DNA of 29,906 nucleotides from a virus: the IMG/VR virus record IMGVR_UViG_3300050821_009352, positions 1 through 29,906 of that record; one strand, given 5' to 3'. Under the pieces are notes generated by a model, which saw nothing but the letters and a program-made list of their open reading frames with translations, did no database searches and was not told the origin of the DNA. The position numbers and the translations under genes were made by a program. This document shows, in pieces, positions 2,954 through 29,906 of this stretch; the stretch's first letter is position 1; each line of letters begins with the position of its first letter.

Positions 2954-3793
2954 ATGGCCGAGCCCGAGGAGGTTCCGGCCCCCACCGAGCCGCCGGAGGG
3001 TGTCACCGCGTGGACCAACCCGCACAACGGCTTCCGGGTGGTGCAGGTGCATTATTCGGCCGACCCCGAGAAGCGGTCGCCCGCCTGGAAGGCGAAAGCG
3101 TCCTCCGGCATGCCGACCCGGGGCTGGCTGCGGGAATACGAGATCAACTTCTCGCTCCCGGAAGGCGTCCCCGTGTTCCAGGAGTTCCAGGCTGGCGACA
3201 TGGTGCGCGACATTCGCGTGCTGCCCGGCGCCCGCCTCCTGCGCTTCTGGGACTTCGGCCACGTCTCTCCGGTCTGTCTGCTCGCCCAGCTCGATCCCTG
3301 GGCCCGGCTCTGCATTCTCCGGGAGATCGTCCTGCAGTACGCCTCGATCGATGTGCTCCTCGAGGCCGTGCTCGGCGCCACGGCGGATCTGATGGGCAGC
3401 GGGTGCCGGGTCTGGGATGCCGGCGATCCCGCCGGCGAGTCCATGACGGATCTGGGCGCCGTCAGTCAGATCCTCATGGGCCGCGGCATCCTCTTACAAA
3501 CCATCCGGTCCCGGCTCGGCTCCTATGCCGCGCTCCGCACCCGGCTCATGGGCCGCACTATGGTGAACGCCCAGGTGTCTCCCCTCTTCTTGGTGCGGCC
3601 GGAGTGTACGACGCTCATCCGGGCGCTCTCCGGCGCCTTCCATCTGAACGAGCAGGGAAAACCCGTGGACACGCATCCGTGGAAAGACGTCTGCGATGCG
3701 CTCCGCTACGGGAACGATAACCTGGCCGGCCAGTCCGACGGCCACCTGGAAGAAATGAAGAAGATGGCCCGGGTCGATTGGGCCTGGCAGTAA
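2954..3793 (+). CDS. terL: Large terminase, nuclease half (split gene, C-terminal part)
   Basis: The 279-residue product carries the RNase-H-like endonuclease domain of a phage large terminase, which cuts concatemeric DNA. The linker signature NPHNGFRVVQVHYSADPEKR (residues 22-41) is the usual sequence after the ATPase core. Acidic candidates follow: D100 in RFWDFGHVSP, D155 and D158 in VWDAGDPAG, and D245/D248 in HPWKDVCDALRYG. There is no ATPase motif. Together with 332-1057 it would rebuild a complete terminase of about 520 aa with little or nothing missing, so both halves look functional rather than decayed. The start is ATG 2954, eleven bases after the previous stop. It overlaps the next gene as TAATG. 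Confidence 0.87.
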   Translation: MAEPEEVPAPTEPPEGVTAWTNPHNGFRVVQVHYSADPEKRSPAWKAKASSGMPTRGWLREYEINFSLPEGVPVFQEFQAGDMVRDIRVLPGARLLRFWDFGHVSPVCLLAQLDPWARLCILREIVLQYASIDVLLEAVLGATADLMGSGCRVWDAGDPAGESMTDLGAVSQILMGRGILLQTIRSRLGSYAALRTRLMGRTMVNAQVSPLFLVRPECTTLIRALSGAFHLNEQGKPVDTHPWKDVCDALRYGNDNLAGQSDGHLEEMKKMARVDWAWQ

Positions 3794-24386: not shown

Positions 24387-24622
24387 CACGACGGCGTCTT
24401 CATGTACAGGTTCGAGATGTCGCCGTCCTGGCCGTGATCGTGCATGCATTGCCGGAACAGGGCGAGCGTCTTCCGGTTCGCGTAAAACTCGATGTGCCAG
24501 GTATCATCATCCACGTACAGGTTGAACTGCGGACTCACGCGCTGGACGTGATGCGTACAGACGGTGACCGCCTGGTCGAGGGTGAGCGTGAGCAGCAGCA
24601 GCAGGGCGGGCAGGGGTTTCAT
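24386..24622 (-). CDS. Small exported protein
   Basis: ATG 24622 overlaps the exonuclease stop (ATGA); 78 residues. A signal peptide is clear (MKPLPALLLLLTLTLDQAVT), followed by a polar domain with two Cys (VCTHH, RQCMHD) and FNLYVDDDTWHIEFYANRK. The VTVC after the hydrophobic core is not a canonical lipobox. It could be a periplasmic factor or part of a lysis set with its membrane neighbours; not recognised. Confidence 0.6.
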   Translation of the reverse strand: MKPLPALLLLLTLTLDQAVTVCTHHVQRVSPQFNLYVDDDTWHIEFYANRKTLALFRQCMHDHGQDGDISNLYMKTPS

Positions 24623-25308
24623 AGTTGCTCCTGGCAGGCCCGCGCGAAGGTGCTGTAATCATCATGTGAGAAGAGCGGCGTCCGCCGGGTGCGCGGCGGC
24701 GGCCGGTCATCCCACCAGAGCTCATAGTCCCCGGGGTGCAGGTAGAGCAGCACGCGGCGCTCGGCGGTCACCGCCGTGCCGTCCGCGAACAGCACCCCGG
24801 GCATGGCGTACCCGGCGGTCTGGTAGGCGTGGCTCTTCATGGGGTTGCGCGTGCGCTTCCACTCGATGACGGTGCGCCGCCCGTCGAGGATCCGGAACTC
24901 ATCCATGGTGCCGCAGTAGTCGAGTTCCGGGTGGTAGACGATCCGTTGCGTCGTGGTCTCGCGCCCGTAGCGATTGAGAAACCGCTCGTAACTCCGCACG
25001 CAGCCAACCGCGCGTGCGTCCACGCTCGCCCAATCGAGATCGCCCTCGGCCAGCAGCCGGCAGCAGAGGTCCACGTGGTCGCCGAGGCCGCGCGCCCGCT
25101 CCATGAAGATGGGGTTGACGCCGGTATATTCTGCCGCGCACTCCGGCATGGCGCGGACGATCTGGGTGACGCTGCGTTTCTTGACTCCGTCGACCAGATA
25201 GCTGTGGTCGTCAGCGAAGAACTGGATCACGGGTGGCCCCTTCGGCTTCACGAAATCTCGGCCGTACTTGTGGAAGAAGTCATCCAGGATGGGGTCGGGC
25301 TTACTCAT
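24619..25308 (-). CDS. PD-(D/E)XK exonuclease, recombination type
   Basis: ATG 25308 overlaps the annealing-protein stop by 8 bases (ATGAGTAA); 229 residues. The nuclease core is GTMDEFRI (D136) followed by TVIEWKR (E149, K151), the D-x(n)-E-x-K pattern of RecB/lambda-Exo/Cas4-like enzymes; H78 in GLGDHVD fits the upstream His seen in RecB-type members. The N-terminus (SVTQIVRAMPECAAEYTGVN) is also typical of phage exonucleases of this group. Such enzymes resect double-stranded ends and hand the single strand to an annealing protein, here the directly preceding gene. Confidence 0.82.
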   Translation of the reverse strand: MSKPDPILDDFFHKYGRDFVKPKGPPVIQFFADDHSYLVDGVKKRSVTQIVRAMPECAAEYTGVNPIFMERARGLGDHVDLCCRLLAEGDLDWASVDARAVGCVRSYERFLNRYGRETTTQRIVYHPELDYCGTMDEFRILDGRRTVIEWKRTRNPMKSHAYQTAGYAMPGVLFADGTAVTAERRVLLYLHPGDYELWWDDRPPPRTRRTPLFSHDDYSTFARACQEQL

Positions 25309-26470
25309 CGTCGTCCCCGTCGTCATCGCCGAAGCTCTGGACACTGCCGCCCCGGTGCGTCGGCGCCAGCGCGCGCTCCTGCTCCCGCTGCTGCTCCCAT
25401 TGGCGCTGCCAGTTCTCCCGCGTCCGGAATGCCTCCTCCTGCTGCTGCTCGAACTGCTGATAGTTCTGTCGGTAGTGGTAGGGGTCGGCCGGCACCTGCG
25501 CCCCCGCGACCCCCGCGGTAATGAGCACCGCCAGCAGGGCGAGGCCCCGCACCGCGGGCACCCAGCGGCCACGGACATAGCGGGCATGCGGCTTGGGCTG
25601 CGGCTTGGGCAGATTCGTCAGCAGCAGATGCATCACCTGCTGGTATTCGTGCGGCGTCAGGTCGGGGAAATGCTCCTTCCCGAACTCCTTGCCGATGTGG
25701 TTCTTCACGTTGGCTCTTACTTCCTCGAGGGGGCGCCCGAAGCCTTCCGAATACTCTCGGAGGGCGGCTTCCAGCGCGTTGTGCTGCTTGCGGGTGATGA
25801 CGGCGGCGAGTGGCACCGGCGGTGCGGGGGCCGGCGCCGGCGCCGCCGCGCTCACGGGATCGGCCGTTGTGGTGGGCGCGTCGGCCCCACCACCGACCGC
25901 CGTGTCTGCAGGCAATGTCCTCACCTCGTCGCCATGCCGCAGACTCCCCGTGGTGGCGCTGGCCCGCTGTGGGGGAGCGTAGGGCTCCCCCACATCCTCG
26001 ATGCTTGCCACTTCGGTCTCGTCCAGCATCCCGAGGCCGCAGATCGACAGCGTCCCGCGGCGTTTGGCTTTCGTCTCGCACTTCATGTAGGCGTTCGCGA
26101 GATTCTCGCCGGTCAGCCCCTTGATCGGCACGGCGCCGGTGGCGCGGTCGGTGCGGCCCGTGCCGTCCTGCAACGCGACCTCGATGACATAGACGTCCCC
26201 GATCAGGTCCTTCCGCATGTCGGTGACACTGACCTTGTGGAGTTTGCGGAGTTGCTCGGTGCAGTCGCGGAGCGCGTAGAGCACGAGTTTTCCGTTCAGC
26301 TTGATGTAGGCGAAGGGCTTGGTCAGGGGATTGAGACCCAGCGAGTCGCACACGCGGGCGTAGTAATCGAGACGTTCCTCGATGGTGAGCGCAGTCAGAT
26401 CGCCGCCGACGAGCAGATTCTCGAGCGTCTTGGGTGGCGTCGGGGTCAGGGCGGTCTCGGCGGTATTCAT
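25301..26470 (-). CDS. ssDNA-annealing recombinase with an unusual membrane/coiled-coil C-terminal extension
   Basis: ATG 26470 overlaps the RHH gene stop (ATGA); 389 residues. The N-terminal 155 residues (YYARVCDSLGLNPLTKPFAY, KLVLYALRDCTEQLRKLH, NAYMKCETKAKRRGTLSICG, LGMLDETEV) match a widespread phage protein type that I associate with RecT/Rad52-like annealing. An Ala/Pro linker (200-222) leads to a helical domain (226-290). Then comes a surprise: a hydrophobic segment (VRGLALLAVLITAGVAGAQ, 307-325) that resembles a signal anchor, and a Gln/Glu/Arg-rich coil (FEQQQEEAFRTRENWQRQWE) ending in DDDGDDDE. The second part looks like an inner-membrane spanin or a secreted protein fused in frame. 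Confidence 0.75.
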   Translation of the reverse strand: MNTAETALTPTPPKTLENLLVGGDLTALTIEERLDYYARVCDSLGLNPLTKPFAYIKLNGKLVLYALRDCTEQLRKLHKVSVTDMRKDLIGDVYVIEVALQDGTGRTDRATGAVPIKGLTGENLANAYMKCETKAKRRGTLSICGLGMLDETEVASIEDVGEPYAPPQRASATTGSLRHGDEVRTLPADTAVGGGADAPTTTADPVSAAAPAPAPAPPVPLAAVITRKQHNALEAALREYSEGFGRPLEEVRANVKNHIGKEFGKEHFPDLTPHEYQQVMHLLLTNLPKPQPKPHARYVRGRWVPAVRGLALLAVLITAGVAGAQVPADPYHYRQNYQQFEQQQEEAFRTRENWQRQWEQQREQERALAPTHRGGSVQSFGDDDGDDDE

Positions 26471-26667
26471 GCGTCCTCCTCGGGGGTGTCGGGGCCGGCA
26501 TGGGCCCGCAAGAACTCGGTGAGCGCGTCGTTGATGCAGTCGGACATGCTGCGCCCGCTCGTGGTGGCGTACACCTTGAGGCGGTGGTGCAACGTGGCGA
26601 GCATGCGCGCGTTGAATTGCACTTGGCTGCCGTAGAGCATGATGGGATGTGGCCGGGATTTGGCCAT
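26467..26667 (-). CDS. Ribbon-helix-helix DNA-binding protein
   Basis: ATG 26667 shares a base with the upstream stop (TAATG); 66 residues. VQFNARMLATLHHRLKVYAT then GRSMSDCINDALTEFLRAH follows the strand-helix-helix pattern of MetJ/Arc-type regulators, with an alternating N-terminal strand and a helix-capping SMSD turn. It would bind DNA as a dimer and could autoregulate the operon; no operator is identified. Confidence 0.75.
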   Translation of the reverse strand: MAKSRPHPIMLYGSQVQFNARMLATLHHRLKVYATTSGRSMSDCINDALTEFLRAHAGPDTPEEDA

Positions 26668-26888
26668 TAGGATTCCTTCGCCCACGGCAGGGCGTCGAAG
26701 GCGGCTAGCCGAGCACGGATGGCTTTAACGCCGATTGCTTGGCTATGAGGTTCGCGTAGGCAATGGTCGAGGAGGTATTGCACATCCGCCGCTCGCTGCC
26801 GTGCGATGACGCGGGCTTCGTCGCGCTCGGCGACTAACCGATCCATCTGCGTCCTGTGGTGCACGGCGAGTTCCTCAAAGGCGTTCAT
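26667..26888 (-). CDS. WAK-tail small protein with ERDEAR coil (73 aa)
   Basis: ATG 26888 overlaps the upstream stop (ATGA). The product has an N-terminal coil (EELAVHHRTQMDRLVAERDE), the shared block ERDEARVIAR, a unique middle (YLLDHCLREPHSQAIGVKAI), and the shared tail FDALPWAKES. The tail DNA carries AAGGA just before the next ATG. It is one of seven consecutive genes with such a tail. Function unknown. Confidence 0.7.
   Translation of the reverse strand: MNAFEELAVHHRTQMDRLVAERDEARVIARQRAADVQYLLDHCLREPHSQAIGVKAIRARLAAFDALPWAKES
26675..26686 (-). repeat. Junction core repeat, copy at end of gene 26667-26888
   Basis: The 12-base core CCTTCGCCCACG (plus strand) encodes the PWAK/SWAK tail on the minus strand and lies just upstream of the next start. 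Further copies lie at 27072, 27389, 27583, 27735 and 27920, always at the same place in the gene. Confidence 0.85.
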
Positions 26889-27061
26889 GCCGCGCGCTCC
26901 TTGGCGTTGATGGTTTCGACGATGAGGTCAGCGTTGTCCCGCAATCGGACATCCGCAATCCACGCACCCTGGCAGTCGTAGATGGCGAAGAAGGTCCCGC
27001 CATTGACGCCGTCGACTTTGGGCTCTCCGCGTCGCCACGGTCTCGGGGATATGTTGCTCAT
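26885..27061 (-). CDS. Small conserved phage-type protein carrying the AKERAA tail (58 aa)
   Basis: ATG 27061 overlaps the upstream stop (ATGA). The body, SPRPWRRGEPKVDG then FFAIYDCQGAWIADVRLRDN and ADLIVETIN, matches a common small phage protein pattern (S-PW ... I.DA.G ... NA.LI..A.N) of unknown function. It ends in NAKERAA, and its last 17 bases are identical to those of the unrelated genes at 27058 and 27366. It lacks the ERDEAR coil, which shows the tail is separable from the body. Confidence 0.7.
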   Translation of the reverse strand: MSNISPRPWRRGEPKVDGVNGGTFFAIYDCQGAWIADVRLRDNADLIVETINAKERAA

Positions 27062-27369
27062 GCCGCGCGCTCCTTCGCCCACGACAGCGCGTCGAAGGCG
27101 GCGCGGGCGGCGTCAAGTTCGTCGCGTCCGCATTCGCAGGCGGCGTTAGGTTTCCCGCGCGCCTTCGGGCACCGAAGGTCATGCTGGTCCGCGCACGAGA
27201 ACGCGCCACGATTCCCGTCGCATACATCAAGGGCCGCGATTACCCGCCGCGAGATGGAGCGTGCGGACTCTGTGTCTGCACGCGACTGCGTTAGCTGGGC
27301 GCGGGCTTCGTCGCGCTCGCGCAGAAACCCATTGCGCTCTGTCGCTAGTCTATCGCTAGGGTCGATCAT
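27058..27369 (-). CDS. WAK-tail small protein with ERDEAR coil and Cys-rich middle (103 aa)
   Basis: ATG 27369 overlaps the upstream stop (ATGA). It contains FLRERDEARAQLTQSRADTE as coiled coil, then a Cys/His-rich section (VCDGNRG, SCADQHDLRCP, NAACECGRDE) with five Cys that might bind zinc, and the tail AAFDALSWAKERAA. The coil and tail are shared with neighbours and the middle is unique. Function unknown. Confidence 0.7.
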   Translation of the reverse strand: MIDPSDRLATERNGFLRERDEARAQLTQSRADTESARSISRRVIAALDVCDGNRGAFSCADQHDLRCPKARGKPNAACECGRDELDAARAAFDALSWAKERAA

Positions 27370-27575
27370 GCCGCGCGCTCCTTGGCGGCCTTCGCCCACG
27401 GCAGGGGGCCGAGCGCAGCCCTCCCCTCCTTGCGGATGTACGCACGGAGTTGGGCAATGCCCCAACCGTCGACATTTTCGACGATCGTGATTAGCGCGGC
27501 GCGGACTTGGTCGCGCTCGGCTTTCAGCCGCGCATCGTAGATCGCCTGCTCTCGTTCGGGTTGTTCCAGGCTCAT
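27366..27575 (-). CDS. WAK-tail small protein with ERDxxR coil (69 aa)
   Basis: ATG 27575 overlaps the upstream stop (ATGA). Coil: REQAIYDARLKAERDQVRAA, a diverged ERDEAR block (two mismatches in the 19-base DNA core). Middle: ENVDGWGIAQLRAYIRKEGR. The tail is extended, GPLPWAKAAKERAA, as if a WAK end and an AKERAA end were joined in series, which is direct evidence of tail recombination or duplication. Confidence 0.7.
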   Translation of the reverse strand: MSLEQPEREQAIYDARLKAERDQVRAALITIVENVDGWGIAQLRAYIRKEGRAALGPLPWAKAAKERAA

Positions 27576-27727
27576 GCGTCGTCCTTCGCCCACGATACGA
27601 TCAGTCCGTGAGCCTCGCGTTGATGCTCAATCAGATGTTTCCGACAAAACCAGAGCGCGGGCTGGTCATCGACCGCGCAGCACATCAGGTCGTGGTAGGT
27701 TTCGCAGACTTCGCAGCGCGGTCTCAT
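27572..27727 (-). CDS. WAK-tail zinc-finger-like mini-protein (51 aa)
   Basis: ATG 27727 overlaps the upstream stop (ATGA). RPRCEVCETYHDLMCCAVDD then WFCRKHLIEHQREAHG has the Cys/His spacing of a small zinc-binding knuckle (CxxC, CC, C..H, H...H). The tail is SWAKDDA; no ERDEAR block is present. The tail is thus fused to a third, unrelated body. Function unknown; nucleic acid or protein binding is possible. Confidence 0.7.
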   Translation of the reverse strand: MRPRCEVCETYHDLMCCAVDDQPALWFCRKHLIEHQREAHGLIVSWAKDDA

Positions 27728-27909
27728 TTGTTGTCCTTCGCCCACGGCAGCGCGTCGAAGTCGTTGCAGACCTTCAGCCAAGGTTCGCAGTCATCTTCGC
27801 CCGTCATGCATGCCCGCAGCCGCCGCGCGATGGCGCGGGCTTCGTCGCGCTCGCGGCGTGCGCCGTGGTACAGGTCCACCATTGCAAGGTAATCGTCGCG
27901 CATCGTCAT
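27724..27909 (-). CDS. WAK-tail small protein with ERDEAR coil (61 aa)
   Basis: ATG 27909 overlaps the upstream stop (ATGA); an ATG two codons later (27903) is possible. RDDYLAMVDLYHGARRERDE then ARAIARRLRA forms the coil, followed by CMTGEDDCEPWLKVCND and the tail FDALPWAKDNK. A 32-base stretch over the coil is identical to one in the next upstream gene. Confidence 0.7.
   Translation of the reverse strand: MTMRDDYLAMVDLYHGARRERDEARAIARRLRACMTGEDDCEPWLKVCNDFDALPWAKDNK
27823..27854 (-). repeat. 32-base exact direct repeat, copy 1 (ERDEAR block)
   Basis: These 32 bases recur exactly at 28008-28039; both encode the ERDEARAIAR coil in neighbouring genes. The inner 19 bases (27835-27853) also occur exactly at 26811-26829 and 27301-27319, with a diverged copy at 27501-27519. 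Identity at nucleotide level, including third positions, implies recent duplication or gene conversion. Confidence 0.9.
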
Positions 27910-28112
27910 GCCGCGTCATCCTTCGCCCACGACAGGGCGTGCATCCTCTGGAGTAGCTCTTCATGCCCGGCCCAAATCTGGTAGTTGGACAGCGCCTCGG
28001 CGAGTTCCCGCGCGATGGCGCGGGCTTCGTCGCGCTCGCCGAGCGCTTGCAGTCGATCCTTGTGGATCGCGGCCACCTCACGCTCATGCAGCAGGTTCCT
28101 CTTCCCGCTCAT
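27906..28112 (-). CDS. WAK-tail small protein with ERDEAR coil (68 aa)
   Basis: ATG 28112 overlaps the upstream stop (ATGA). KRNLLHEREVAAIHKDRLQA then LGERDEARAIARELAEALSN forms one continuous coil; the middle is IWAGHEELLQRM and the tail HALSWAKDDAA. It is the first member of the array, next to conserved early genes that lack the tail. Function unknown. Confidence 0.7.
   Translation of the reverse strand: MSGKRNLLHEREVAAIHKDRLQALGERDEARAIARELAEALSNYQIWAGHEELLQRMHALSWAKDDAA
28008..28039 (-). repeat. 32-base exact direct repeat, copy 2 (ERDEAR block)
   Basis: Exact copy of 27823-27854, in the gene at 27906-28112. The two copies sit 185 bases apart in the same orientation, so recombination between them would delete one gene boundary and create an in-frame hybrid gene. 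Confidence 0.9.
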
Positions 28113-29513: not shown

Positions 29514-29891
29514 CTACGCCCGCCGTCGATGAGGCTTCGTGAACGCCAAGACCTTCCCGAGGCCGTGGTGGCGCGCAGGCTGCGGCGGATGACGGGTCGG
29601 CTCGTCATCGAGCAGGGCCAGGAGGTCGGGCCGGCTCGCGCGAATGCCACTTCCGTACAAATCCACGGTCAGCTTGATCGAGGCGTGACCCATCTGCTGC
29701 CGGACGTACTGCATATCCGCGCCCTCGCTCAGGAGCAGGGAGGCGTAGGTATGGCGCAAGGCGTGCGGGGTGAAGTGGGCGGGCAGTCCCGCCCGCGCGA
29801 CGGCGCGGCCGAAGGCCCGCTCCATGGATGCGGGATCCAGGGGCCGTCCGGGATGTCTCCCGGGAAACAAAAACCGGGAAACAGGAGCGAC
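29514..29891 (-). CDS. int: Tyrosine-type integrase, C-terminal part (truncated by window end)
   Basis: Reading leftward, the frame is open from the window edge to the TAG at 29514. The start is missing; a TTG at 29870 is not a real start because RFLFPGRHPGRPLDP continues upstream. The catalytic domain shows HALRHTYASLLLSEGADMQY (the H-x-x-R box and following helix) and QMGHASIKLTVDLYG with the second His and the nucleophilic Tyr. It catalyses site-specific integration and excision. Sequence beyond 29891 is a C-run and is not reliable. Confidence 0.88.
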   Translation of the reverse strand, partial: VAPVSRFLFPGRHPGRPLDPASMERAFGRAVARAGLPAHFTPHALRHTYASLLLSEGADMQYVRQQMGHASIKLTVDLYGSGIRASRPDLLALLDDEPTRHPPQPARHHGLGKVLAFTKPHRRRA

Positions 29892-29906
29892 CCCCCCCCC
29901 CCCCCC

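Follow-up and report, generated by a model that had tools for sequence, protein, structure and literature searches.

Why should seven consecutive mini-genes of one phage, whose bodies are not all of one kind, end in nearly the same short tail? These genes lie in IMG/VR virus record IMGVR_UViG_3300050821_009352, of which the whole stretch analysed here (29,906 bases, 67% G+C) is called the window. Our analysis indicates that the array is probably a shuffling cassette locus in tailed phages of a rare, uncultured lineage, with two short repeats acting as recombination seams. At the level of sequence, the seams are shared, cassette order and partners have changed, and block edges fall at both seams in four pairs of homologous genes. 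Beyond this, we infer that the seams are sites of strand exchange instead of merely well-tolerated edges.

The gene array and its two repeats

The seven mini-genes, lettered A to G in reading direction, occupy 28112 to 26667 on the minus strand and encode proteins of 51 to 103 aa. The tail (L/V)(P/S)WAK is present in six of the seven; the seventh, F, has only AKERAA in common with the others. Translation gave the seven tail peptides exactly as a preliminary description of this DNA had quoted them. Genes A to F each end in an ATGA stop/start overlap with the next gene, and gene G ends in TAATG, its tail serving the start of an RHH (Arc-like) gene (26467..26667, minus strand).

The bodies are less diverse than was first supposed. 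Alignment places A, B, D, E and G in one diverged coiled-coil family, RERDEARA-(variable)-EARAIARR-(variable)-FDALPWAK, with one to three ERDEAR units per gene. Its members in the window are gene A (27906..28112, 68 aa, tail HALSWAKDDAA) and gene B (27724..27909, 61 aa, tail FDALPWAKDNK), both identified by translation and family alignment, and, from their translations, the diverged gene D (27366..27575, 69 aa, double tail LPWAKAAKERAA), gene E (27058..27369, 103 aa, two ERDEAR-type units, tail FDALSWAKERAA) and gene G (26667..26888, 73 aa, tail FDALPWAKES). Only two translated bodies fall outside the family: that of gene C (27572..27727, 51 aa, tail VSWAKDDA), which is Cys/His-rich and found no match in Pfam and NCBIfam searches, and the SPRPW-type body of gene F (26885..27061, 58 aa), which is unrelated to the others and carries the AKERAA junction only. 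The preliminary description had counted at least three unrelated body types; C and F are indeed unrelated, but the other five bodies are a single family, so the tail that those five share is the family's own C-terminus. Searches of the mini-genes against Pfam, PHROG and NCBIfam returned weak matches only, none of which was used, and whole-record searches of seven more distant records recovered no member of the ERDEAR family. The coil proteins are predicted to consist of a long helix, a short helix and the tail, based on an AlphaFold model from a ten-member alignment (long helix at residues 5-88 of the member in record L126; mean pLDDT 90).

The first repeat lies at the gene ends and is referred to here as the 3′ seam. 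Its core, CGTGGGCGAAGGA, occurs in five exact copies and one copy with a single mismatch, all at the ends of A (27919..27931), B (27734..27746), C (27582..27594), D (27388..27400, the mismatched copy), E (27071..27083) and G (26674..26686) on the minus strand. When up to two mismatches were allowed, the whole window held nine matches against 2.25 expected, a number reached in 0 of 100 shuffles. The junction sequence AAGGAGCGCGCGGCATGA, which spans the Shine-Dalgarno site and the ATGA overlap, is exact from D to E (27366..27383), from E to F (27058..27075) and from F to G (26885..26902), again on the minus strand; 0.09 matches would be expected even at three mismatches, and shuffled windows fall short. 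The earlier claim of 17 identical bases at these three junctions therefore holds. The double tail reported for gene D is also real, and the D and F junctions have 22 identical nt in common. When the 14 array junctions were aligned on the ATG, they proved to be mostly of two kinds, gggcgaaggacgacgcATGA and aaggagcgcgcggcATGA.

The second repeat, or 5′ seam, is internal to the coil genes. The inventory in the preliminary description was correct for the tail repeat and overlooked this one, the ERDEARA-coding DNA GAGCGCGACGAAGCCCGCGCC, which on the minus strand is identical in A (28012..28037), B (27827..27852) and the first unit of E (27298..27318) and is 1 nt off in G (26803..26828). A Chi-like role for GAAGCCCGC was considered and dropped: GACGAAGCCCGC is confined to array genes in each phage examined, and the codon pair GAA-GCC is common in this phage.

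Together the two seams would allow recombination between non-identical genes to yield viable products. The 3′ seam, being the gene end, encodes (L)(P/S)WAK(E/D)xxA while holding the AAGGA(G) Shine-Dalgarno site and the ATGA overlap for the next gene, and a crossover within it could put any cassette in front of any other without loss of translational coupling. Since gene ends carry the ribosome site of the following gene and genes begin at the ATGA, such a crossover would give a translation-ready junction. The suggestion that each cassette arrives with its own ribosome site is thus better put the other way round: each gene end carries the site of whichever gene follows. The 5′ seam is the ERDEAR/EARAIARR-coding DNA of the coil family; a crossover in the ERDEAR motif would keep the frame and either exchange N-terminal parts or change the number of coil units.

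Related phages and the edges of conserved blocks

Relatives of the array are rare, amounting to six IMG/VR records that represent four distinct phages. Five (L006, L008, L009, L010 and L011) came from tail-pattern scans of IMG/VR, and L126 emerged when the L008 small terminase was used as query. Two pairs are near-identical and come from different metagenomes, L006/L010 (98%) and L008/L009 (99.9%). Assembly chimeras were rejected as a source of the junctions because both pairs agree there.

Gene order differs among these phages. The window reads A-B-C-D-E-F-G-RHH-SSAP, the last being a putative single-strand annealing protein (SSAP) gene. L006 and L010 read G-TerS-E-X-MRARVV gene, with the G homologue preceding TerS; L008 and L009 read TerS-Y-MSAKRP gene; L011 reads TerS-Y-VSADGML gene; and L126 reads TerS-30 aa membrane peptide-X-MSADGML gene. 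The preliminary description had taken a fixed cassette order as the outcome that would speak against shuffling; order and partners instead differ among the relatives. Its idea of the junction as a homology seam gains from this variation and from junction DNA common to unrelated bodies, but it was incomplete, as exchange appears to use the internal ERDEAR seam too. The membrane peptide gene of L126 (2556-2648, MIAALGAGAGLLAAFVVVGCMWLVLEERAA) carries the junction GAGGAGCGCGCGGCATGA and sits between TerS and the coil gene. The TerS-TerL interval is variable across records L126-L142: it is empty in L142, holds one gene in L131, and in L006, L128 and L132 spans several kb that include collagen-like tail fibre genes. 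In more distant relatives this slot is occupied by other genes.

Both edges of the conserved blocks were located by comparing four homologous pairs segment by segment: E and G of the window with those of L006, X of L126 with that of L006, and Y of L008 with that of L011. Identity in the N-terminal parts is 0.54 for E, 0.52 for Y, 0.48 for X and 0.54 for G; shuffled sequence gives 0.42-0.49. Between the internal GACGAAGCCCGCGCC motif and the ATGA junction identity is 0.92, 0.90, 0.88 and 0.74 in the same order, and over the 90 nt downstream it is near the null value (0.54, 0.54, 0.56 and 0.44). Local alignments that were blind to the motifs started no more than 12 nt from an EAR motif and ended no more than 8 nt from the next ATG in all four pairs; for Y the alignment was limited to the gene, because the upstream TerS, at 94% identity, would otherwise extend it. 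Gene E includes 103 nt that are identical between the window and L006, phages whose TerLs are 72% identical. Between L126 and L011, TerS (273/300, 91%) and the downstream Z gene (226/240, 94%) are similar, and the cassette in between is unrelated.

The junctions also share more DNA than a ribosome site would account for, as the preliminary description had proposed. Among non-orthologous pairs of array genes, the longest exact junction match averages 13.1 nt and reaches at least 17 nt in 25 of 87 pairs. The control comprised 19 ordinary ATGA/GTGA overlaps led by a Shine-Dalgarno site, taken from outside the array in the window and from related phages; its 171 pairs average 7.4 nt, and of the four with values of at least 14, at least three look like orthologous genes. 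Matches of 17-24 nt occur among genes with unrelated bodies. Gene C has 23-24 exact nt in common with the junctions of X in L006, Y in L008 and X in L126, the L126 membrane peptide gene shares 17-19 nt with the D, E and F junctions, and gene F and the membrane peptide gene have 17-22 nt of junction in common with D and E. The codon-level alignment that had been proposed as a check found synonymous choices fixed beyond codon usage in the tails (~2e-5) and in ERDEAR (~1e-5), the latter figure being overstated because GAA is commoner before Ala (half of Glu-Ala pairs). In L006 (4361-4400) and at the equivalent site of L010, two independent assemblies, a 2-nt insertion frameshifts the tail of the G homologue to the peptide FDALPWKRRTTHERPADG; the TerS ribosome site, GCGAAGGACGACGCATGA, is preserved, and the Shine-Dalgarno/ATGA junction is intact.

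Recombination genes and competing explanations

Downstream of the array on the minus strand lie the putative SSAP (25301..26470) and an exonuclease (24619..25587; PHROG_298, 1.7e-12), the latter as described before. Modelling gives moderate support to a Rad52/Red-beta fold for the SSAP, placed at residues ~40-150 in the Rad52 superfamily. The AlphaFold core has pLDDT >90; RAD52 and lambda Red-beta lead the Foldseek matches (best E 1.7e-4), and VIA gave Z up to 8.3 over 65-111 residues, the value for RAD52 being 8.3 over 75 residues. The earlier label of annealing recombinase thus agrees with the predicted fold but not with sequence families: no RecT, Erf, Sak or Rad52 match was found in Pfam, PHROGs, NCBIfam or PDB sequences, an absence that does not exclude membership. 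With a RAD52-like fold and a PHROG_298 exonuclease beside the array, an annealing-recombination pair would be at hand. The exact seam matches are 22-32 nt long. Reported minimal pairing lengths are 23-27 nt for Red-beta and 31-34 nt for RecA (PMC3945230), so the seams straddle the Red-beta minimum and are at or below that of RecA. Exchange driven by annealing, through phage recombination of the Red-beta/Rad52 type, is in our view a real possibility that falls a little short of an even chance.

Several other features of the window were recorded. In its C-terminal part (25301-25600), the SSAP open reading frame (ORF) runs on in frame into a hydrophobic stretch and a coil rich in Gln and Glu that weakly matches an Rz-like spanin (PHROG_312, E 0.038), as though an SSAP had been fused to, or shared a frame with, a spanin-like gene. 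TerL is apparently split: a 241-aa ORF at 332-1057 matches TerL (PHROG_2), and this short first ORF is conserved in L006, L131, L137, L138 and L142. About 1.9 kb downstream of it, a separate 279-aa ORF (2954-3793) looks TerL nuclease-like by eye and has no match in PHROGs. The contig ends in a run of C (29892-29906) next to a truncated integrase gene (29514-29870); this is probably an artefact of where the assembly stopped.

How far other explanations could account for the array depends on which of its features are weighed. If AAGGA were selected at a fixed distance from the ATG and the C-termini were similar by convergence, a ribosome-site constraint would suffice. Single WAKE or WAKD endings with an ATGA overlap do occur in ~20 unrelated viral contigs, recovered from IMG/VR with a relaxed junction pattern and kept as a convergence baseline; because such ends arise singly in unrelated phages, WAKE alone is not diagnostic. 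Yet ordinary Shine-Dalgarno-ATGA junctions share ~7 nt against 13 in the array, and FDAL(P/S)W, the codon choice and the 17-24 nt identities all reach past the Shine-Dalgarno site. Within IMG/VR, DAL(P/S)WAKE at gene ends was found in this lineage alone. In GTDB contigs, the pattern DA(L/F)(P/S)WAK(E/D) gave 33 matches and no array-type gene end: one was a short frame arising by chance, and the others were internal or unrelated. Among GenBank phages, tblastn with B, E and F and blastn with the array gave no meaningful match, and SSAP relatives L012-L061 carry no WAK-tail array. Constraint on the ribosome site alone is therefore very unlikely. A plain paralogue array is a stronger candidate, though still an unlikely one. 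Here the ERDEAR gene would have been duplicated in tandem, its middle evolving fast between N- and C-terminal motifs kept by function, with AAGGA as the ribosome site and no role for the repeats in recombination. That five of the seven genes form one family with conserved ends fits this explanation, and a coiled coil that conserves a W motif at its C-terminus could well be a functional protein. It does not predict, however, that C, F and the L126 membrane peptide gene, all outside the family, would have 17-24 nt of junction DNA in common, or that, in three pairs, N-terminal parts no more alike than unrelated sequences would precede a remainder that is 88-92% identical. Nor does it predict the change of partners and order, or a G tail whose peptide is frameshifted in L006/L010 while the junction is kept.

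Illegitimate recombination followed by selection would also produce mosaic genes, with exchange anywhere, survival limited to products joined at a gene edge or where the helix repeat starts, and the repeats as passive bystanders. Most mosaic boundaries, at which shared sequences are not identifiable, are commonly viewed in this way (PMC3029335). In the array, both edges have shared sequences, the left edges are intragenic and at a repeated motif, and unrelated genes would not be expected to gain a shared junction of 17-24 nt; we consider this explanation improbable. A more ambitious proposal is a dedicated diversification locus, in which recurrent exchange keeps the two seams identical at the DNA level and the phage's own annealing recombinase reassorts N-terminal coil units, bodies and whole genes as parts ready for translation. 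This seems doubtful, but if true, small accessory proteins would be continually renewed, for example against host defences. For the shuffling cassette locus that we prefer, several points count on the other side. The array is known in only five distinct phages, the window included, so there are few independent exchange events. Five of the seven window genes are paralogues, and much of the tail identity could be inherited from duplications that no exchange followed; the window phage favours the codon pair GAAGCC; the singly occurring WAKE and ATGA endings belong here too; and a search of 12 related records, all possibly fragments, did not find the annealing protein. Selection alone would, moreover, be expected to put surviving breakpoints at gene ends.

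Comparison with known systems

From its sequence, the array appears to be a case of boundary-sequence mosaicism, in a form not described for the known systems with which we compared it. That short boundary sequences delimit phage modules has long been proposed (PMC3029335). In the lambdoid phages, module junctions are said to carry short conserved boundary sequences, as in HK620 (Clark et al. 2001, in the account given by PMC2327257). Like these, the array has short homology at module edges of the kind proposed to guide homologous recombination between otherwise different phages: 17-24 nt are common to otherwise unrelated modules (C, F and the membrane peptide gene versus the coil genes), and related phages have differing modules and partners across the junction. 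Unlike in the lambdoid phages, the module is a single mini-gene or a part of one, and the boundary is repeated within one operon and doubles as ribosome site and coding sequence.

The Start-Associated Sequences (SAS) of Cluster K mycobacteriophages are 13-bp sites containing a Shine-Dalgarno sequence, with the consensus GGGATAGGAGCCC just before the ATG (Pope et al. 2011, PMC3203893). The array resembles them in repeating a Shine-Dalgarno-containing sequence before the starts of genes of different families, in a non-structural region and in one phage lineage. In contrast to the 13-bp SAS consensus, its junctions read gggcgaaggacgacgcATGA or aaggagcgcgcggcATGA; they are also longer, lie mostly within the upstream coding region and encode a C-terminal peptide. 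They are, in addition, paired with a second, internal seam, and partners are swapped at both. PeSL promoter/stem-loop cassettes shuffle genes in T4-type phages (Arbiol 2010 and Comeau 2014, as summarized in PMC4503421). Going by that summary, both systems have a repeated regulatory element between small genes, shuffle cassettes and bring expression signals along, whereas PeSLs are promoter-terminator elements between genes and the array seams lie within genes that overlap, where they couple translation. The ATGA overlaps leave no space for an early promoter and stem-loop between genes, although no promoter scan was run. Similar to the Rad52-like phage recombinases of De Paepe 2014 (PMC3945230), the window has a predicted annealing protein beside an exonuclease and seams near the Red-beta minimum; unlike those recombinases, the window protein is known only as a prediction, and its gene was not found in the records of relatives.

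A long-standing question about phages is whether short shared junctions guide mosaicism or whether it arises at random and is filtered afterwards, and most boundaries leave no shared sequence with which to address it. The array junction occurs in many copies in one operon, has about the minimum length for a Red-type recombinase and can be traced through several swaps. It also has a reason to persist, because the ribosome site of the next gene lies in it. The array may therefore give an unusually clear view of phage genomes turning mosaic, and the seam hypothesis is directly testable. Compared with the systems above, what appears to be new is a seam inside overlapping coding sequence, a second seam within the gene, and several swaps of single-gene partners.

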